A stretch of 64,000 bases of DNA from Cryobacterium soli (GTDB lineage: Bacteria > Actinomycetota > Actinomycetes > Actinomycetales > Microbacteriaceae): positions 2,852,001-2,916,000 of the forward strand of contig NZ_CP030033.1 of assembly GCF_003611035.1 (NCBI RefSeq), in the 5' to 3' direction. Shown here one piece after another: positions 37,709 to 46,178 of the stretch. The position numbers were made by a program, and so were the translations under genes. The notes beneath the pieces were generated by a model that had not been told where the DNA came from, did not search any database, and saw only the letters and a program-made list of their open reading frames with translations. Position 1 is the first letter of the stretch. Every line of letters begins with the position of its first letter.

Positions 37709-37828
37709 CCCACTATCTTGGCGCAAACGCCTGCGGCGCATCTGTGTGTTTGCCCCGGTCAGGGGGACCATGGTCACACCGTGACGGCGCGCGTGTCGTC
37801 ACACTGCTTAACAATCGGGCTGGCTTCC

Positions 37829-37953: not shown

Positions 37954-39045
37954 GTGAGCGATCAAGACCCGCACGGAATCCTGCTGCCCGCCGTGCCCGC
38001 CCTCGACGGCTCGGTGCGCGTGCAGGACGGTGCGGTCTGGATCCTGGACCGCCGGGTCTTCCCCGCCCGGATCGAGTGGGTGCGGGCCGATTCGGCCGAC
38101 GCCGTCTCGGCGGCCATCACCGCCATGGTGACCCAGAGCTCAGGCCCGGCCTTCGCCGCCTGCGCCGGCATGGAACTGGCCGCGCTGCAGGCCGCCGCGC
38201 TACCGCTGCCCGAGGCCCAGGTGGCGCTCCGGCGGGCGGCGCTGGTGCTCGCCAACGCCCGGCCCACCAACAACCATCCGCGTGAGGCGGTGGAGTTCGT
38301 GCTCGCCGCCCTCACTGGCGCCGCGAGCACCGCTGAGATCGTGGAGTCCGCCGTCGAGGCGGCCCGTGCGTTCGCGCTGCTCTACCGCTCGCGCAGCCGG
38401 GCCCTCGGTGAACACACGGTTGCGCTGCTCGACGACGGTGCGCGCATCCTCACGCACTGCTGGATGGACACCTACCTGATCGAACTGGTGCGCGCCGCCG
38501 AGTCCGCCGGCAAGCGGTTCGACTGGGTCGCCACCGAGACCCGCCCTTACCTGCAGGGCGCCAGGCTCACCGCGCACACGCTGCGGGAGATGGGCCAGCG
38601 GGTGACCCTGATCACCGACGGGATGGCCGCTGCAGCACTGTCGCCCGGGTCGTCGATCGGGCCTATCGACGCCCTCGTCACGGCGGCCGACCGGGTGAGC
38701 ATGGACGGCAGCGTCGCCAACAAGGTCGGCACCCTCGGTCTCGCCGTCGCCGCGGCCGCGTTCGACGTGCCGTACTACGCGCTCATCCAGGCCCCGGACC
38801 CGACGCTGCCGACCGGCTCGGACATCGTGATCGAGCACCGCGACCCGGCCGAGGTCTTCGAGACCCTCGGCGTGCGCACGGCCTCCGCCCTGCTCACGGA
38901 TGCCTGGTATCCCGCCTTCGACGTGACCCCGCCGCGGTTCGTCAGCGCGCTCGTGACCGACCGCGGTCCGTTCCGGCCGGCCGACCTCGCGCAGTACTTC
39001 GAGACCCCCCACCCGACCATCTCCCAGGATCGAGCTCTCCGGTGA
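37954..39045 (+). CDS. mtnA: S-methyl-5-thioribose-1-phosphate isomerase (MtnA), divergent
   Basis: A 363-aa member of the MtnA/eIF2B-alpha family that isomerises methylthioribose-1-phosphate to methylthioribulose-1-phosphate. The catalytic pair is kept: Cys169 in ILTHCWMD and Asp246 in AADRVSMDG, with NKVGT following. The usual THCNxGxLA loop is replaced by THCWMDTYL, so it belongs to a diverged branch. Assignment rests on these residues plus mtnK, mtnC and mtnB in the same operon. GTG 37954 has GGAGGA upstream; its stop overlaps mtnK by GTGA. Confidence 0.86.
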   Translation: MSDQDPHGILLPAVPALDGSVRVQDGAVWILDRRVFPARIEWVRADSADAVSAAITAMVTQSSGPAFAACAGMELAALQAAALPLPEAQVALRRAALVLANARPTNNHPREAVEFVLAALTGAASTAEIVESAVEAARAFALLYRSRSRALGEHTVALLDDGARILTHCWMDTYLIELVRAAESAGKRFDWVATETRPYLQGARLTAHTLREMGQRVTLITDGMAAAALSPGSSIGPIDALVTAADRVSMDGSVANKVGTLGLAVAAAAFDVPYYALIQAPDPTLPTGSDIVIEHRDPAEVFETLGVRTASALLTDAWYPAFDVTPPRFVSALVTDRGPFRPADLAQYFETPHPTISQDRALR

Positions 39046-40325
39046 GCAGTGACAGCCCCCAGCCTCAGACCAGCCCCGCCCTCCCCGACAGCGCCGACTA
39101 CGCCCTCCTCGTCGACCGCGACGACGTCGTGGCCTACCTCGACGGCGCCGGCTACCTGCCGCGCCTGGCCGCATCCGCCGACCAGATCGAGGTGGACGAG
39201 GTCACCGCGGGCAATATGAACCGGGTCTTCATCGCGCGCGGCCCGCTGGGCAGCCTGGCCGTGAAGCAGGCGCCGCCGTGGGTGCAGGCCGTCGGGCCCG
39301 CGTGGCCGATCGACCCCAACCGGATCGCCTCGGAGGCCCGCGCGTACGCGATGCTCGCCGACCTCGCGCCGGCGAGCGTGCCATCCGTCGAGCCTGTCGA
39401 CCTGGATCGTTACGTGCTGGTGATGGAGGACCTCTCCGACCTCGACGTGCTGCGCGATGTGCTCGTGCGCCAGGTGGCGGATGTCGTCGCCGGCGCCGAG
39501 CCCGTTGCCCTCGACTTCGAGGCCCTCGGCACCGTCGTGGGGCGCTTCAGCGCCGAGCTCACCCTGGCCACGAGCCGCGCAGGCCTCGGCCCGGACGAGC
39601 ACGCCGCACTCATCGAGACCGCGGCCAACCCCGAGCTCTGCGCCCTCACGGTGGACGCCGTGCTCGACGAGCCCTACCGACTGAACGACCACAATCACTG
39701 GATCCCCGAGCTCGACGCGGAGGTGCGCGCGCTCTACACCGACACCGAGCTGCTCGCCGCCGTCGCCGACGTGCGGGAGATCTTCGCCACCCGCGCCGAG
39801 GCGCTCATCCACGGCGACCTGCACTCCGGATCGCTCATGGTCGGCGTGCGCGGTGGTGAGCAGGCCACCAAGGTCTTCGACCCCGAGTTCAGCTTCGTCG
39901 GCCCCGCCGGCATGGACCTTGGCCTGTTCTGGGCCAACCTCACGATCGCCTCGATCGCGGCCACCCAGGTGGATGCGACCGCGCTCGCCGCGGCCCGCGC
40001 CTCGGCGATCGAGTCGAGCTGGAGCGCTTTCGGGGCCCTGGTCGCCGAGCGCTGGCCGCAGCGGGTGGGCACCCCGGACGGCCTCGACCTCGACGCCTGG
40101 CTCGCCCGCATCCGCAGCGACGCCTGGCGGTTCGCCGGGGTGGAGGCCGTGCGCCGGGTGGCCGGCTACTCGCACGCCGCCGACTTCACCACCCTGCCCG
40201 CCGAGCGCATCCCGGCCGCCTACGCCGATCTGCTCGGCCGCGCCCGCGCTTGGATCATCACCGGCACCAGTGCCGCCAGCACCGAAAGCACCGCCAGCAC
40301 CGCCAGCACCGAAGGAACCCTGTGA
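39042..40325 (+). CDS. mtnK: S-methyl-5-thioribose kinase (MtnK)
   Basis: A 427-aa phosphotransferase-fold kinase that phosphorylates methylthioribose at C1. The catalytic loop is IHGDLHSGSLMV and the metal-binding region is VFDPEFSFVGPAGMD. The ITAGNMNRVFI-like glycine loop (EVTAGNMNRVF) and PWVQAVGPAWPIDPNRIASEARA are typical of MTR kinases. The C-terminus ends in a low-complexity Ala/Ser/Thr/Glu tail made of short DNA repeats. GTG start overlaps mtnA and its stop overlaps mtnC (GTGA both). With a kinase present, the substrate is free MTR, from MTA nucleosidase or import. Confidence 0.92.
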   Translation: MSSDSPQPQTSPALPDSADYALLVDRDDVVAYLDGAGYLPRLAASADQIEVDEVTAGNMNRVFIARGPLGSLAVKQAPPWVQAVGPAWPIDPNRIASEARAYAMLADLAPASVPSVEPVDLDRYVLVMEDLSDLDVLRDVLVRQVADVVAGAEPVALDFEALGTVVGRFSAELTLATSRAGLGPDEHAALIETAANPELCALTVDAVLDEPYRLNDHNHWIPELDAEVRALYTDTELLAAVADVREIFATRAEALIHGDLHSGSLMVGVRGGEQATKVFDPEFSFVGPAGMDLGLFWANLTIASIAATQVDATALAAARASAIESSWSAFGALVAERWPQRVGTPDGLDLDAWLARIRSDAWRFAGVEAVRRVAGYSHAADFTTLPAERIPAAYADLLGRARAWIITGTSAASTESTASTASTEGTL

Positions 40326-41038
40326 CCCTGCACATCACCGCCAGCACCCTGGTGCTCGACCTCGAGGGCACGACGAGCGCCGCCGGGTTCATCCTCGGCG
40401 ACCTCTACGACTACGCCCGTCCCCGCCTGGGCGCCTGGCTGGACGACCACGCCGCCGACCCCGTCATCGCCGAGGCCCGCGCGCAGGTCATCGCCGACGG
40501 CGGGCTGGCCGCCGACGCCTCGACCGCCGAGGTCGTGGCGGTACTGCACGCCTGGATGGCCGCCGATGTGAAGGCCACCCCGCTCAAGACCATCCAGGGA
40601 CAGATCTGGGCCGAGGGTTTCGCCCGCGCCGAGATCAGCTCGCATTTCTTCGACGACGTGATCCCGCAGCTGCGCCGCTGGCACGACGACGGCGTCACCC
40701 TCGCCGTGTTCTCCTCTGGCTCGGTGGCCAGCCAGGTGCCGTGGTTCAGGCACTCCCCGGACGGCGACCTGACGCCGCTCATCGTGGACTACTTCGACAC
40801 GGTCACGGCCGGGTCGAAGAAGGAGGCGACCTCCTACGACGCCATCCGCACCGCGCTCGGCGTCGACGCGAGCGACCTGGTGTTCTTCACCGACCATCCG
40901 GAGGAGGTCGCCGCGGCGACCGAAGCCGGCTGGCAGGTCGTCGCGTTCTCCCGGCCGGATGAGCCGTGGTTCGGCGCCGACTTCGGTGCGGCACCCGTCG
41001 TGGCCTCCTTCGACGAGGTCGAGGTGGCGAGCCGATGA
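40322..41038 (+). CDS. mtnC: Acireductone synthase / enolase-phosphatase (MtnC)
   Basis: A 238-aa HAD-superfamily enzyme that enolises and dephosphorylates diketo-methylthiopentyl phosphate to acireductone. The nucleophile motif is LDLEGTTS (Asp13, Glu15), then the FSSGSVASQ loop and SKKEATSY with the motif III lysine. The length fits bacterial MtnC, so the separate MtnW and MtnX of Bacillus are not needed. GTG overlaps the mtnK stop; its stop overlaps the mtnB start (ATGA). Confidence 0.94.
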   Translation: MTLHITASTLVLDLEGTTSAAGFILGDLYDYARPRLGAWLDDHAADPVIAEARAQVIADGGLAADASTAEVVAVLHAWMAADVKATPLKTIQGQIWAEGFARAEISSHFFDDVIPQLRRWHDDGVTLAVFSSGSVASQVPWFRHSPDGDLTPLIVDYFDTVTAGSKKEATSYDAIRTALGVDASDLVFFTDHPEEVAAATEAGWQVVAFSRPDEPWFGADFGAAPVVASFDEVEVASR

Positions 41039-41700
41039 ATCAGTTCTCGCCGCTCGGACTCACCGAGCAGACCCTGCACGCCGCCGGCGCCGCCCTGGCC
41101 GCCGAGGCCGCGCGCTTCGCCGGGCTCGGCTGGATGCGAGGCACCTCCGGCAACCTCTCGGTCACCCTTGAGCGCGACCCGCTGTTGCTGGCCGTGACCG
41201 GTTCAGGGCTCGACAAGGGCGAGTTGACCGCATCCGACTTCGTCATCGTCGACCGCGACGGCGAACGCGTCGAGGGCCGCGGCGGCTCCGGCCACAAGCC
41301 CTCGGACGAGTCCGGGCTGCACGCCCGCGTCGCCCGGGTCACCGGAGCCGGCGCCGTGGTGCACGTGCACGCCCTGGCCGCCGTGGTCGCTGCGCACCAC
41401 TGGCCCGATGGCGTGGTGCTGCGAGACCTCGAGATGCTCAAGGGCATCGGCCACCTGGCCCACAACGAGACCGTGGTCATCCCGGTGGTGCAGAACAGCC
41501 AGGACATGGTGGAGCTCGGCGACGCCTTCGAGGCGGTGTACCTCCGCCCCGGCGCAGGGGTGGCGGAGGTCCCGGCGGTGCTGGTGGCCAACCACGGCAT
41601 CTACGTCTGGGGCGCCGACCTGCGGCAGGCCCGCTGGCACGCCGAACTGATCGAGTGGATGCTGCGCTTCACCGTCGAAACCCGCGGCTCAACCCCATGA
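41035..41700 (+). CDS. mtnB: Methylthioribulose-1-phosphate dehydratase (MtnB)
   Basis: A 221-aa class II aldolase-fold zinc enzyme that dehydrates methylthioribulose-1-phosphate. Zinc ligands are His110 and His112 in VVHVHAL and His187 in VANHGIYVWG. The N-terminal RGTSGNLSV and the SGHKPSDESGLHARV phosphate-binding and catalytic blocks are intact. It ends the mtnAKCB operon and is followed at once by a 16-bp terminator hairpin. The next step enzyme, MtnD, is encoded 3.9 kb further on beyond the importer genes. Confidence 0.93.
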   Translation: MNQFSPLGLTEQTLHAAGAALAAEAARFAGLGWMRGTSGNLSVTLERDPLLLAVTGSGLDKGELTASDFVIVDRDGERVEGRGGSGHKPSDESGLHARVARVTGAGAVVHVHALAAVVAAHHWPDGVVLRDLEMLKGIGHLAHNETVVIPVVQNSQDMVELGDAFEAVYLRPGAGVAEVPAVLVANHGIYVWGADLRQARWHAELIEWMLRFTVETRGSTP

Positions 41701-41703
41701 CTG

Positions 41704-41749
41704 GCCCATTTTTGCTAGTTGAGGCGGCTCCCGACTAGCAAAAATGGGC
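41704..41749. terminator. Bidirectional terminator after mtnB
   Basis: A perfect 16-bp stem (41704-41719 with 41734-41749, arm GCCCATTTTTGCTAGT) closes a 14-nt loop. It contains T5/A5 tracts on both sides, so it can act for mtnB (+) and the convergent permease gene (-). Confidence 0.9.
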
Positions 41750-41771
41750 GACCCATGGTCTTGGGGCGGGG

Positions 41772-42818
41772 TTAGTTGGTCATGCTCCCGGCCACCACCA
41801 CGGTGCGCTTGCGGGAGAACGTGAAGCTGAACAGCAGGGCCACGAGCAGCACGATGCCCTTGCCGAAGTCCTGCGCGTAGTAGGGGAGCCCGATCATCGT
41901 GAAGCCGGTCACCATCACGGCGATCAGCACGGCGCCGAGGGCCGTGCCCCACGCGTTCGGGCGGCCCATGCCGAGCACCGAGACGCCCACCAGCGAGACT
42001 GCCATGGCGTCGAGCAGGAGCGAGTTGCCCGCGCTCACGTCGCCCTGACCGATGCGGGCGGCCAGCAGCAGTCCGGCGACCGAGGCGAGCAGGCCGCAGC
42101 CGATGTAGGCGGCGGTGCGGTAGACCTGCACCCGGATACCGGCGAGCCGGGCCGCCTCGGCGTTGGCGCCGACCGCGTAGAGCGCACGGCCCCACTTGGT
42201 GCGTTCGAGCACGAACCAGAGCAGCGCCGTGAGGGCCACGAAGATCAGCACGGGAACCGGCACAGGCCCGATGCTGCCGCGGTCCAGCCAGAGGAAGTCG
42301 GTGGTGAACCGGCCGGGCGCCGTGGAGCCGTCGGAGAGGGTCATCTGCGAGGAGATGGACTTGCCGTCCACGATGAGCAGTTTCAGCCCCACGATCACGA
42401 ACATCGTGGTGAGCGTGGCCAGCAGGTCGGGGATGCGCGCGACCACGATCAGCAGAGCGTTGAGCGCCCCGATCAGGGCGCCGCCGGCCAGCACCACGCC
42501 GATGGCCACGCCGCCGACCTGGTTGCCGACCACCATGGTCCAGGCCGCGATCGAGACCGCGAACCCGGCGGATGCGCCCACCGACAGGTCGATGCCGCCC
42601 ACGGTCATCGCGAGCATCACGCCGAGCCCGGCGATGGCCGTGGGGGCGATGAACTTGAGCATGCCGAACATGTTGTCCACCGTGCGGAAGTTCGGTTCGG
42701 TGATAGCGAAGAAGCCGATCAGCAGCACTGTGACGGCGACGAAGCCCCAGCGCACGATACCGGCGGACGCGGACTCGAGGGCGCTGCCGCGCACGCGGTC
42801 GATGGAGATGCGGCTCAT
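41772..42818 (-). CDS. RbsC-type ABC transporter permease
   Basis: A 348-aa permease of the ribose/autoinducer-2 branch (BPD_transp_2) with eight to ten hydrophobic segments and the signature GGIDLSVGASAGF near residue 74. The conserved GANAEAARLAGI loop contacts the ATPase. The ATG overlaps the ATPase stop by ATGA. Together with the ATPase and lipoprotein it forms a complete pentose-type importer. Its position between mtnB and mtnD suggests a thio-pentose such as methylthioribose (inference). Confidence 0.92.
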   Translation of the reverse strand: MSRISIDRVRGSALESASAGIVRWGFVAVTVLLIGFFAITEPNFRTVDNMFGMLKFIAPTAIAGLGVMLAMTVGGIDLSVGASAGFAVSIAAWTMVVGNQVGGVAIGVVLAGGALIGALNALLIVVARIPDLLATLTTMFVIVGLKLLIVDGKSISSQMTLSDGSTAPGRFTTDFLWLDRGSIGPVPVPVLIFVALTALLWFVLERTKWGRALYAVGANAEAARLAGIRVQVYRTAAYIGCGLLASVAGLLLAARIGQGDVSAGNSLLLDAMAVSLVGVSVLGMGRPNAWGTALGAVLIAVMVTGFTMIGLPYYAQDFGKGIVLLVALLFSFTFSRKRTVVVAGSMTN

Positions 42819-44377
42819 ACTGTGGTTCTTTCCGGTTGGTGATCGCCGAGGAAGGCGTTGACGATGGCGGCGCGGTCGAGAGCGTCGGCGTAGCCGTCCA
42901 GGGCGATCTCGCCGGCGACGAGCACCACAATGCGGTCGGAGACCTCGAGGATCTCGTCGACGTCGCTGGAGAACACGACGGCGGCGCTGCCGGTCTGGGC
43001 GAGGGTGCTGAGGTGGGCGCCGATGCCGCGGCGGGCCGCGATGTCGACCCCTCGGAACGGCTCGTCGAGCACGGCCAGCCGCGGAGCGGCCGACAGCCAC
43101 CGGCCCACGACCACCTTCTGCTGGTTGCCGCCGGAGAGGTCATCCGTTGAGGTCTCGATCGAGTCGGCGACGACCTCGAGGTCGGCCACCACGGCCCGGG
43201 CCCGGTCGGACTCGAGGCCCCGGCGCAGTGTTCCCCAGCGCGACGATTCGCTCAGGAACGGCACGCTCACGGTGCGGGCGATCGACCAGCCGGGCAGGAT
43301 CGCCTGGCGCTGCCGGTCCTCAGGCACCAGGACCACACCGGCCGCGATGGCGTCGCCGGGGCGCCGGGGAGCATACGGTTCACCGTGCAGGGTGAGGCTG
43401 CCTCCCGCCGGGCGGGCCAGCCCGCCGAGGACCTCGGCGAGTTCGCTCTTGCCGGCGCCGATGAGGCCGAGCACCCCGAGCACCTCGCCGCCGCGGATGG
43501 TGAGCGACAGCGGCTGCGCCTCGGGGAACAGGGGCACGGCGAGTACCTCGGCGACGACGGCGGTGCCGCGGTGCACATGCTCGCGTTTCTGCGCGAGTTC
43601 GGTGGCCCGCCCGAGCATGTCGTGCAGGATGCCGTTCCAGGCGAACGGACGCTCGCTGTGGCTCTGCACGGTGCCGTCGCGCAGCACGACGACGCTGTCG
43701 GCGAGGGCTTCGATCTCGCCGAAACGGTGCGAGACGTAGACGATGGCGAGCCCGTCGGAGCGGAGTGACCGCAGCACGTCGAAGAGCCGGTCGGCCTCGG
43801 CGGAGGTGAGCGCCGAGGTGGGCTCGTCGAGGATCAGCAGCCGCGGCGTGTGCCGCAGGGCGCGAGCGAGGGTGACGAGTTGGGCATCCGAGATGCGCAG
43901 GTCGCGGGCGTCCTGGGAGAGCACCCGGTCGGACCAGTCCAGGCCGAGCAGCGCCAGGGCGCTGCGGGCGGCGGCCAGGTCGCGGCGGCGGTTGCGCAGC
44001 ACGCCGCCAGCGCCGGCGAGGTTGTCGAGCAGCACGTTCTCGGCCACGGTGAGGCCGGGCACGATGCCGTCGGCCACCTTCTGGTGCACGGCGGAGATGC
44101 CGTGCTGCCGGGCGACGGAGGGGCTGGTCAGGGCCACCTCGGTTCCGAGGACCCGGATGGACCCGGTGTAGCGGGGGTTGGCGCCGGACAACGCCTTGAT
44201 CAGGGTGGACTTGCCGGCGCCGTTCGCGCCGAGCAGGGCGGTGATGCGGCCGGCCGCGAAGCCGAGGTCCACCCCCTGCAACACGGCATTGGAGCCGTAG
44301 GAAAGTGACACACCACTGAGGGAGACGACCGCGGTGCGGTCGTCCCCCTCAGGGCGTATGCGCAGATCGTGGGTCAC
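42815..44377 (-). CDS. RbsA-type ABC transporter ATP-binding protein (two ATPase domains)
   Basis: A 520-aa duplicated ATPase as in RbsA/MglA. The first domain has GANGAGKST with Lys56 and ILDEPTSALT. The second has the degenerate Walker A GLIGAGKSE, signature LSGGNQQKVVVGRWL and VLDEPFRGVDIAARR. It starts at GTG 44377, which overlaps the binding-protein stop (GTGA), and ends overlapping the permease start. It supplies energy for the importer nested in the methionine-salvage locus. Confidence 0.93.
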   Translation of the reverse strand: MTHDLRIRPEGDDRTAVVSLSGVSLSYGSNAVLQGVDLGFAAGRITALLGANGAGKSTLIKALSGANPRYTGSIRVLGTEVALTSPSVARQHGISAVHQKVADGIVPGLTVAENVLLDNLAGAGGVLRNRRRDLAAARSALALLGLDWSDRVLSQDARDLRISDAQLVTLARALRHTPRLLILDEPTSALTSAEADRLFDVLRSLRSDGLAIVYVSHRFGEIEALADSVVVLRDGTVQSHSERPFAWNGILHDMLGRATELAQKREHVHRGTAVVAEVLAVPLFPEAQPLSLTIRGGEVLGVLGLIGAGKSELAEVLGGLARPAGGSLTLHGEPYAPRRPGDAIAAGVVLVPEDRQRQAILPGWSIARTVSVPFLSESSRWGTLRRGLESDRARAVVADLEVVADSIETSTDDLSGGNQQKVVVGRWLSAAPRLAVLDEPFRGVDIAARRGIGAHLSTLAQTGSAAVVFSSDVDEILEVSDRIVVLVAGEIALDGYADALDRAAIVNAFLGDHQPERTTV

Positions 44378-45465
44378 GATGTGGCGGGCAGCCAATCGGC
44401 CACGACGGTGGTGTCCAGGGTCAGGCTCGGCTCGGCGTCGCGCAGCGCGGTGACGTTCTGCACGCTGTTCGTCGCCAGGAAGTCCTGGGTGATGACGATG
44501 GCGGGGAACTGCACGTCGGTCGCTTCGAGCTGGCCGGCGAGCGACAGGGCCAGCGAGCGCACGACGGCGGCGCCCACGGCGGCCGGGTCGGTGGCGGAGG
44601 TCGCGACCCAGGGGCTGTCCGCGGCGTTGATGACCTCGAGGTCGGCGTTGGAGATGTCGATGCCGTAGACCTTGACGGACGACTGCAGGTTGTTCTGGAT
44701 GACGGCCTGCACGGCGCCCTTGGTGATCTCGTCGTACGGGGCGAAGATCGCTTGCACGTCGGGGTTCTGCTTGAGCGCGGCGTCCACCAGCGGGATGTTG
44801 TCGCTGGCGGTGGACTCGCTCACCTTGCCGGTGGAGAAGACCACGTCGAGGTTGTGGTCGGTGACGTACTGGTTCCACACGACCGCGCGACGGTCGAGGG
44901 CGGCGAAACCCGTGGCTGAGACGTAGCCGACCTTGGCACCCTCGCCGACATCGTCGATGAGCTGGTCGAGCACACCGGAGGCCATCGACTCGTCCGACTG
45001 GGAGGTGGTGATGACACCGGTCACGTCGGTGAGCGCCAGGTCGTAGACGACCACGGGGATGCCGGCGTCCACGGCCTGGGTGATCAGCGGCTGCAAGGTG
45101 TCGGTCTGGCCGTGGTCGACGATGATCGCGTCGGGCTTGGAGGCGATGGCCTGCTCGAGGTCGCTGGCCTGCTTGGCGTTGTCGTTGCGGGCATCCGTGA
45201 TGGTGAGGTCGATGTTCGCGGCCTTGGCCTGCGCCTTGGCGCCGGCTCCCCAGGCCTCGAAGTAGTCGCCGGCGCCGCTCTGACGCACGAGGGCGACGGA
45301 GACCGGGTCGCCGTCGAACGGCGCGGGCAGCGGAGCGGTCGCGACGGCGGCCGCGGCGGTGCTGGACTCGGAGGGGCCGGCGGTGCTGGACTGCGCGCAT
45401 CCGGTGAGGGCCAGAACGGCGGAGGCCGTGAGGGCAAGAACTGACAAGCTGCGTGCGTGGGCCAT
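44374..45465 (-). CDS. RbsB-type substrate-binding lipoprotein
   Basis: A 363-aa Peripla_BP_4 protein. The signal peptide ends in lipobox LTGC (Cys23), then a Ser/Ala-rich linker. The mature domain has VALVRQSGAGDYFEAW, the SKPDAIIVDHG hinge block and GYVSATGFAALDRRAVVWNQY, of the ribose/AI-2 binding type. Unlike E. coli RbsB it is about 60 residues longer. GGAGA is 8 nt before the ATG. It is first in the transporter operon and divergent from mtnD, with 137 bp between, suggesting coordinated control and a salvage-related ligand. Confidence 0.92.
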   Translation of the reverse strand: MAHARSLSVLALTASAVLALTGCAQSSTAGPSESSTAAAAVATAPLPAPFDGDPVSVALVRQSGAGDYFEAWGAGAKAQAKAANIDLTITDARNDNAKQASDLEQAIASKPDAIIVDHGQTDTLQPLITQAVDAGIPVVVYDLALTDVTGVITTSQSDESMASGVLDQLIDDVGEGAKVGYVSATGFAALDRRAVVWNQYVTDHNLDVVFSTGKVSESTASDNIPLVDAALKQNPDVQAIFAPYDEITKGAVQAVIQNNLQSSVKVYGIDISNADLEVINAADSPWVATSATDPAAVGAAVVRSLALSLAGQLEATDVQFPAIVITQDFLATNSVQNVTALRDAEPSLTLDTTVVADWLPATS

Positions 45466-45533
45466 GGGGCAGGTCTCCAGGAAGTTCGGGGGAAAGCCCA
45501 TGGAATCAAGCCGGTCGGCTCCGCGCACAATTG

Positions 45534-45555
45534 CGTGACCTCGTGTTACGTCACG
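45534..45555. promoter_or_regulatory. Inverted repeat between importer operon and mtnD
   Basis: CGTGAC-N10-GTCACG lies centrally in the 137-bp divergent intergenic region and could bind a regulator shared by the importer and mtnD. Confidence 0.45.
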
Positions 45556-45590
45556 GCGTTCCTGAGCGCGACGATCTTTCTCGGGCTCAA

Positions 45591-45596
45591 TATATT
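45591..45596 (+). promoter_or_regulatory. -10 box of leaderless mtnD promoter
   Basis: TATATT ends exactly 6 nt before ATG 45603, so transcription should begin at or next to the start codon. No Shine-Dalgarno is present. No good -35 hexamer is visible. Confidence 0.6.
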
Positions 45597-45602
45597 CGTC
45601 TC

Positions 45603-46178
45603 ATGACACTTCTCACCGTCTGGGACGAAACCGACGAAACCACCCCCACACTGCAGACGCGGGACGCCGCCGTCATCTCCGACGTGCTCTCGCCGCTGGG
45701 CGTGCGATTCTCCCGCTGGGAGCTCAAGGAGCTCGCGGAGAACCCCACCCCCGACGAGGTTCTCGAGGCCTACGGCACCGAGATCGCCGCAGTGAACGAC
45801 GCCCAGGGCTACACCCTGGTGGATGTCGTCTCCATCACCCCGTCGGACGACCCCGCCTACGCCGACCTGGCGGCCGTGTCCCGGCAGAAGTTCCTCAGCG
45901 AGCACCAGCACGACGACGACGAGGACCGTTTCTTCGCCCGCGGCTCCGGCGTGTTCTACCTGCGCGTCAACGGTTTTGTGCACGCCGTGTTCTGTGAGGC
46001 CGGCGACCTCATCTCGGTGCCGGAGAACACCACCCACTGGTTCGACATGGGCACCCGCCCGGACTACGTGTCGGTGCGGTTCTTCCACGACGACGACGGC
46101 TGGGTGGGCAACTTCACCGGCAGCACCATCGCTACCAAGTTCGCCACCTACGACGAGCTCGCGGCCGTTCCCGCCTGA
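45603..46178 (+). CDS. mtnD: Acireductone dioxygenase (MtnD)
   Basis: A 191-aa cupin metalloenzyme that oxidises acireductone to the 2-keto acid precursor of methionine plus formate (iron form). All four metal ligands are seen: His101, His103, Glu107 in EHQHDDDEDRFF and His145 in TTHWFDMG. The ATG at 45603 is 6 nt after TATATT, implying a leaderless transcript. It completes the MtnA-K-C-B-D pathway, although it is separated from the other genes by the importer on the other strand. The final aminotransferase is not in the window. Confidence 0.94.
   Translation: MTLLTVWDETDETTPTLQTRDAAVISDVLSPLGVRFSRWELKELAENPTPDEVLEAYGTEIAAVNDAQGYTLVDVVSITPSDDPAYADLAAVSRQKFLSEHQHDDDEDRFFARGSGVFYLRVNGFVHAVFCEAGDLISVPENTTHWFDMGTRPDYVSVRFFHDDDGWVGNFTGSTIATKFATYDELAAVPA

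Follow-up and report, generated by a model that had tools for sequence, protein, structure and literature searches.

In the available portions of PMC3228920, a study of 2011, mtrACB is named as the probable transporter of 5-methylthioribose (MTR) in Enterobacteria and Bacillus cereus, where it co-occurs with the methionine-salvage (mtn) genes; the same text credits its first identification in B. cereus to a study of 2004, describes it as not functionally characterised as of that publication, and reports metboxes and an S-box for it. The accessible part of PMC6302742 refers to experiments on MTR transporters, and that of PMC12632272 states that E. coli uses MTR and 5-deoxyribose, with a putative permease gene. 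In Rhodospirillum, 5'-methylthioadenosine (MTA) is a sulfur source, and no MTA importer is named in the part of the paper at hand (PMC4958253). We describe here a locus of Cryobacterium soli in which an ATP-binding cassette (ABC) importer with RbsB-, RbsA- and RbsC-like subunits is embedded among mtn genes. The locus lies within C1:2852001-2916000 of the 4.39-Mb single-contig genome, a stretch of 64 kb hereafter called the window, and, judging from its sequence, probably combines methionine salvage with an ABC importer of its own for MTR, a sugar that contains sulfur. A first-pass annotation of the window had put the locus forward as a candidate MTR uptake system and had considered dedicated MTR importers to be poorly characterised. 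The naming of mtrACB in the 2011 paper, as far as its available text goes, weakens that claim of novelty, and it is well supported that the importer is an actinobacterial member of an importer kind that had already been predicted. Less expected were three features described below: complementary kinases, a conserved intergenic element and a nucleoside module. Titles and abstract openings in a partial, open-licence literature search contained no actinobacterial MTR importer and no importer-hydrolase route for MTA.

The genes mtnA-mtnK-mtnC-mtnB run on the forward strand (37954-41700) and converge on the importer operon, which is on the reverse strand and is in turn divergent from the forward-strand mtnD (Table 1). 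Profile matches and coordinates bear out the earlier view that all five mtn genes are present and that mtnD is split off by an RbsB-RbsA-RbsC-like operon on the opposite strand. The mtnA and mtnK genes overlap by 4 bp. The start and stop codons of adjacent importer genes also overlap by 4 bp, and because of these overlaps the genes look like one operon, which encodes one binding protein, one two-domain ATPase and one permease. Genome-wide, the salvage set is complete through MtnD (MTA nucleosidase, MTR kinase, MtnA, MtnB, MtnC and MtnD, the mtnA and mtnK models scoring under their cut-offs), and several aminotransferases can serve in the final transamination (PMC3228920, available part). In the proposed route, the lipoprotein would capture extracellular MTR and the permease and ATPase would carry it into the cell, after which MtnK would phosphorylate it and MtnA would isomerise the phosphorylated sugar; MtnB, MtnC and MtnD would convert the product towards the keto-acid, to be made into methionine by an aminotransferase.

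The linkage of the importer with mtn genes is conserved. Among 299 genomes drawn from the family of the window, the lipoprotein was found in 29 (E<=1e-60) and MtnK in 30 (E<=1e-20), with both in 27, and loci were fetched from the 28 other lipoprotein genomes and from three MtnK-only genomes. In 28 of the 29 lipoprotein genomes, mtnA and/or an MTR-type kinase is in the same locus. The window-type locus, with the importer between mtnB and a divergent mtnD, is present in 18 genomes including that of the window, and the other 17 lipoproteins are 74-84% identical; one such locus (G155) is spread over two contigs, and another (G026) has about 9 kb between mtnB and the permease gene. In ten of the 11 remaining lipoprotein genomes, mtnA is either no more than about 3 kb away from the lipoprotein gene or at the opposite end of the importer gene set. 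An MTR-type kinase is encoded in nine of these ten sister loci, the contig ending in the tenth; their lipoproteins are 43-49% identical (tblastn), and searches of the ten loci gave no match to mtnB, mtnC or mtnD. As for the three MtnK-only genomes, one has kinase, permease and ATPase genes at a contig end (G099), one has a different importer (G271) and one has no other mtn match (G009). The five genomes of the same genus that are listed have neither the lipoprotein nor MtnK.

A scan of named genomes yielded 49 loci, Jiangella, Blastococcus and Trujillonella among them, and mtnD is divergent directly upstream in 47; the two sets are not independent, as the draw of 299 genomes and the named loci share some members (L116 and G122, for instance, have identical coordinates). 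Among named relatives, Cryobacterium sp. N22 is the nearest, with a lipoprotein 93% identical and neighbouring DNA 83-90% identical. The trio is thus found beside mtn genes not in this strain alone but across the family and in Jiangella, Blastococcus and Trujillonella. This recurrence, together with the closest solved relative of the lipoprotein (see below), supports the candidate assignment as an MTR uptake system, and extends the Bacillus and Enterobacteria prediction to Actinomycetota with dense comparative evidence. It also offers a testable case that actinobacteria take up external MTR and turn it into methionine.

The locus resembles mtrACB in having ATPase, permease and binding-protein genes beside mtn genes, and differs from it in gene order and in regulation-related features: an Rfam scan of the window gave no match at the gathering threshold, for a riboswitch or any other family, and a conserved GTAACA-N4-GTCAC-like element is present instead. 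The gene content of mtrACB is matched by a locus on an Enterobacter plasmid (L126), which has importer genes, mtnK, mtnA and an acireductone dioxygenase gene and whose binding protein shares 30% identity with that of the window; the plasmid locus also has a gene for an LVIVD-repeat protein, which we take to be the counterpart of mtrY (COG5276). A plasmid search returned 220 matching records, of which eight were examined, and mtnK and mtnA adjoin the importer in four of these.

By both sequence and fold, the best solved relative of the lipoprotein is 4RY8, titled as the MTR transporter solute-binding protein Tlet_1677 of Thermotoga lettingae (36% identity over 319 residues, same fold); neither 4RY8 nor Tlet_1677 was found in the small set of papers covered by the literature search. 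At 40 hand-picked pocket-region positions compared by alignment, the lipoprotein equals 4RY8 at 22 and RbsB at 11, a count that fails to split mtn-linked from unlinked relatives; gene calls of at least 480 residues were left out of this alignment (L047, L049 and L053 are missing). The 18 positions that differ from 4RY8 include Tyr244, which is Trp in 4RY8, and most of the first pocket segment. The second-best solved relative, at 27-30% identity, is 5ULB, a sugar ABC transporter binding protein of Yersinia enterocolitica whose title names no ligand and which is almost the same as the mtn-linked Enterobacter protein at the 40 positions.

The importer shares its fold and subunit organisation with RbsABC, and the best NCBIfam match of the permease is a ribose permease model, as one would expect of an ordinary ribose importer that happens to sit in an mtn locus. 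However, the scores are far under the ribose cut-offs (150 bits for the permease, against 398), the mtn linkage recurs in the 28 genomes described above, and both the pocket-region residues and the partner genes differ from those of RbsABC. Leu143, Tyr244 and Thr292 of the lipoprotein align with Arg, Asn and Gln of RbsB, presumably the ribose contacts of the E. coli protein, so these residues are not kept, and an RbsB-like protein that does have them is encoded elsewhere in the genome. The ribose importer was rejected on the three substitutions, and we consider it highly improbable.

The gene content of the sister loci bears on a different alternative, in which the main substrate is 5-deoxyribose or a set of 5-modified riboses that includes MTR, an alternative that overlaps with the MTR reading. 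In E. coli, the MTR kinase and isomerase act on both MTR and 5-deoxyribose in the dihydroxyacetone phosphate (DHAP) shunt, according to the available part of PMC12632272, and the ten sister loci combine the importer with mtnA, and in nine cases with an MTR-type kinase, in a setting that lacks mtnB, mtnC and mtnD matches. Two of them (L059 and L061) resemble the DHAP shunt loci (mtnK-mtnA-ald2), having the importer, an MTR-type kinase, mtnA, a class II aldolase and an aldolase/dehydrogenase fusion. The window has the MTR kinase and isomerase in common with the shunt loci; however, it has mtnB, mtnC and mtnD rather than the aldolase, and in window-type loci generally the importer is paired with these three genes, whose products act on methylthio compounds. 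The best solved relative, moreover, is titled an MTR protein. We therefore regard 5-deoxyribose, or a broader set of 5-modified riboses, as an unlikely main substrate, though one to be taken seriously.

Several observations weigh against MTR as the substrate of the importer. The sister loci, which lack mtnB, mtnC and mtnD matches and two of which carry a class II aldolase, suit 5-deoxyribose no less than MTR. An identity of 36% to 4RY8 leaves specificity unfixed, the pocket having been compared by alignment. The mtn-linked Enterobacter protein equals the lipoprotein at only 18 of the 40 positions and is without D117, H118, L143 and T292, whereas unlinked relatives are equal at 19 (G152 and Bradyrhizobium), 23 (Methylobacterium) or 25 (Rhizobium leguminosarum). 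The other four of the eight plasmid records, among them those of Methylobacterium and R. leguminosarum (both with incomplete plasmid gene tables) and of Rahnella, show no annotated mtn gene within 5-6 kb. Finally, the MtnK encoded at this locus scores slightly under its NCBIfam cut-off and falls in a clade apart from the importer-linked kinases. The gene identities and the conserved linkage are observations; MTR as the ligand is the predicted part, argued from homology and linkage.

The two kinases provide a further link between the importer and MTR. The importer operon closes with a second MTR kinase gene in 45 of the 47 named loci that reach far enough and, within the draw, in 15 of the 18 window-type genomes; the one representative scanned scored 349.7 bits (cut-off 275). 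It is missing, with mtnK present in the mtnA operon, in the window, G026, Cryobacterium sp. N22 and Glaciihabitans tibetensis; the mtnK of the window is the sole MtnK match in its genome (E<=1e-20). Conversely, the importer-linked kinase was the only one found in two genomes of the draw (G068 and G273) and in 15 of the 20 named genomes searched, namely 13 Microbacterium, out of 19 Microbacterium loci in the named scan, and two Naasia. All 20 named genomes have at least one MTR kinase. In a midpoint-rooted FastTree of 87 kinases (matches covering less than 85% of the query were dropped, and removal of duplicates and of sequences with more than two stops then reduced 104 to 87), the mtnK of the window belongs to a 26-member clade (support 0.999); the importer-linked kinases form another group together with three MtnK proteins of proteobacteria (61 sequences, support 0.916). 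Given the complementary losses, the two kinases are expected to do the same job, from which we infer that the substrate of the importer is tied to an MTR kinase.

It had been pointed out that the window lacks an MTA phosphorylase or nucleosidase gene and that MtnK acts on free MTR, which a pentose-type importer could supply. A whole-genome PF01048 search found three places, all outside the 64-kb window: a purine-nucleoside phosphorylase (TIGR01698, over its cut-off), an MTA/S-adenosylhomocysteine (SAH) nucleosidase that adjoins luxS (C1:2442014-2442715; TIGR01704 137.4 bits, cut-off 73.8), and a uridine-phosphorylase-like protein under its cut-off. The statement therefore holds for the window and fails as an argument about the genome. 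With an MTA nucleosidase encoded at another place in the genome, the cell can also form MTR itself; the importer would then supplement a pathway fed from within, by supplying MTR from outside or recovering MTR that has leaked out, rather than being its sole source. The case for an MTR importer does not need the missing nucleosidase. The presence of luxS beside the nucleosidase gene would also suit an LsrB-like importer for autoinducer-2 (AI-2). The AI-2 importer LsrACDB has two permease genes and the LsrB binding protein, whereas the importer described here has a single permease gene, its lipoprotein matches the chain named LsrB at an E value of 2.5e-4 only, and its locus partners are mtn genes. 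On the single permease and the weak LsrB match this candidate was rejected, and it strikes us as extremely improbable.

The gap between mtnD and the lipoprotein gene contains a candidate regulatory site. That the importer is divergent from mtnD across 137 bp with an inverted repeat was confirmed, the repeat being CGTGAC-N10-GTCACG (45534-45539/45550-45555). Cryobacterium sp. N22 does not share this outer repeat, but the core enclosed by the repeat is widely conserved. Comparison of homologous regions delimited a 15-bp element as a candidate operator (Table 1), and its exact core, GTAACANNNNGTCAC, occurs once in the whole genome, at this gap. After seven of 65 intergenic regions had been removed as duplicates, the pattern GTAAYA-N4-G-[TCA]-[CA]-A-[CT] was found on the importer strand in 55 of the 58 remaining mtnD/lipoprotein regions, with none on the other strand, none in 38 regions upstream of mtnA and 0.02 expected in single-base shuffles; the pattern was written from 18 of the 58 regions, which leaves just the remainder to serve as a check, and for this reason and because of kinship between the species the shuffle value overstates independence. 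The pattern is absent in Naasia aerilata, Trujillonella and Blastococcus. Many loci have it at 41-42, 52-54 or 63-65 bp from mtnD, about one helical turn per step, but in Microbacterium, Subtercola and some Naasia the distance is 70-145 bp. A TATATT hexamer stops 6 bases short of the mtnD ATG (45591-45603), and the mtnD mRNA may be leaderless. The insert had also been described as framed by two 16-bp terminators: the framing repeats are real, with arms of 16 and 17 bp, and they are only possible terminators, the terminator scan giving two sites against 1.8 expected in single-base shuffles, which is not above chance.

Table 1. Features of the methionine-salvage and importer locus (positions in the window)
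Feature	Position	Strand	Basis
mtnA	37954-39045	+	PF01008 above cut-off; NF004326 255 bits and TIGR00512 201 bits, both under cut-offs
mtnK, S-methyl-5-thioribose kinase (divergent clade)	39042-40325	+	TIGR01767 271 bits, slightly under cut-off of 275; HGDLHSGS and FDPEF motifs
mtnC, acireductone synthase (enolase-phosphatase)	40322-41038	+	TIGR01691 188.7 bits, cut-off 128.1
mtnB, methylthioribulose-1-phosphate dehydratase	41035-41700	+	TIGR03328 169 bits, cut-off 137.05
Perfect inverted repeat, 16-bp arms, 14-nt loop, possible terminator	41704-41719/41734-41749		Between convergent mtnB and permease genes
Importer permease, RbsC-like	41772-42818	-	PF02653
Importer ATPase, RbsA-like	42815-44377	-	PF00005, two ABC stretches
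Importer lipoprotein, substrate-binding (closest solved relative 4RY8)	44374-45465	-	PF13407; lipobox LTGC in translation
Divergent mtnD/lipoprotein intergenic region	45466-45602		137 bp
Conserved 15-bp element GTAACACGAGGTCAC, candidate operator	45535-45549	-	Comparison of homologous regions
mtnD, acireductone dioxygenase	45603-46178	+	PF03079 89.4 bits, cut-off 27; no NCBIfam match
Perfect inverted repeat, 17-bp arms, possible terminator	46205-46221/46223-46239		Downstream of mtnD

A second importer is associated with the same gene set in related genomes. In Cryobacterium sp. N22 (L129, 3.8-9.4 kb), a five-gene operon encoding a BMP-type lipoprotein (PF02608), an ATPase, two permeases and a nucleoside hydrolase (PF01156) is located between mtnA and a threonine-aldolase-like gene; at the matching place in the window, the aligned flanks are 26 bp apart (37763-37788) and the module is absent. 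In G271 (L068, 7.9-14.8 kb), the module is between mtnB and the second kinase gene, where other genomes carry the MTR importer, and the locus keeps mtnA, mtnK, mtnC, mtnB, the second kinase and mtnD; the G271 nucleoside hydrolase is split over two frames. The module also adjoins the mtn locus in a Naasia metagenome-assembled genome (G185) and in Trujillonella, and its hydrolase gene adjoins mtnK in Jiangella and, at the locus edge, in Blastococcus. BMP relatives of at least 65% identity are present in 13 of the 299 genomes, all 13 among the 19 with a window-type or G271-type locus (hypergeometric P 1.4e-18, uncorrected for kinship; G271, itself among the 13, supplied the query). Eleven of these 13 have the module elsewhere in the genome, always with all five genes. 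Six of the 18 window-type genomes, that of the window included, have no BMP match of at least 65%; the window's genome offers at best a match of 26% identity to the G271 protein. Weaker matches (38-46%) occur in 11 further genomes, eight of them without lipoprotein or MtnK matches. Away from its Rbs-type locus, G047 (L146, 2.9-8.7 kb), one of the other three, has an mtnA-like gene, 48% identical to sister-locus mtnA, directly before a more distant BMP-type importer.

Because the BMP module tracks the mtn locus, MTA is suggested as its substrate, which would amount to parallel MTA scavenging. Cleavage of MTA to MTR is usually assigned to MtnN or MTA phosphorylase. According to the available text of PMC7408626, the 5'-fluoro nucleoside 5'-FDA is turned into 5-FDR by a purine nucleoside hydrolase from Trypanosoma vivax, and such hydrolases can therefore accept 5'-modified nucleosides. 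If the linked importer and hydrolase act on MTA, they would provide an additional way of cleaving MTA and would link the uptake of nucleosides with sulfur acquisition. It is also conceivable that the Rbs-type importer itself takes up MTA, to be cleaved inside by the chromosomal nucleosidase, an MtnN-type enzyme being encoded in the genome; however, the binding protein is of the pentose type, and in the 13 genomes it is the BMP-type importer with its hydrolase that tracks the mtn genes and looks like the nucleoside route, making MTA uptake by the Rbs-type importer very unlikely. Returning to MTR as the substrate of the Rbs-type importer, a joint reading can be offered tentatively, with slightly less than even confidence: Microbacteriaceae and some relatives would scavenge S-adenosylmethionine by-products via two parallel importers, an Rbs-type one for MTR and a BMP-type one with an IU-type hydrolase that cleaves MTA to MTR. 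The two branches would have been gained and lost separately (the G271 mtn locus having the nucleoside branch only and the window's genome the MTR branch only), the two MTR kinases would be interchangeable, and a locus-specific operator, its exact core being present once in the genome, would control mtnD and the MTR importer.

Other neighbours of these loci were also noted. A gene for an SfnB/DszC-like oxidoreductase lies near mtnD (L041, 4558-5760, and relatives; 281 bits, SfnB cut-off 430.9) in 15 of the 17 fetched window-type loci of the draw and in 23 of the 49 named loci, a neighbour that hints at sulfur acquisition. On the R. leguminosarum plasmid pRLN4 (L121), a relative of the lipoprotein is clustered with an SfnB family sulfur acquisition oxidoreductase and flavin-dependent oxidoreductases, with no mtn genes annotated nearby. 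In the window, the genes that follow mtnD encode an ABC-2 type transporter pair.

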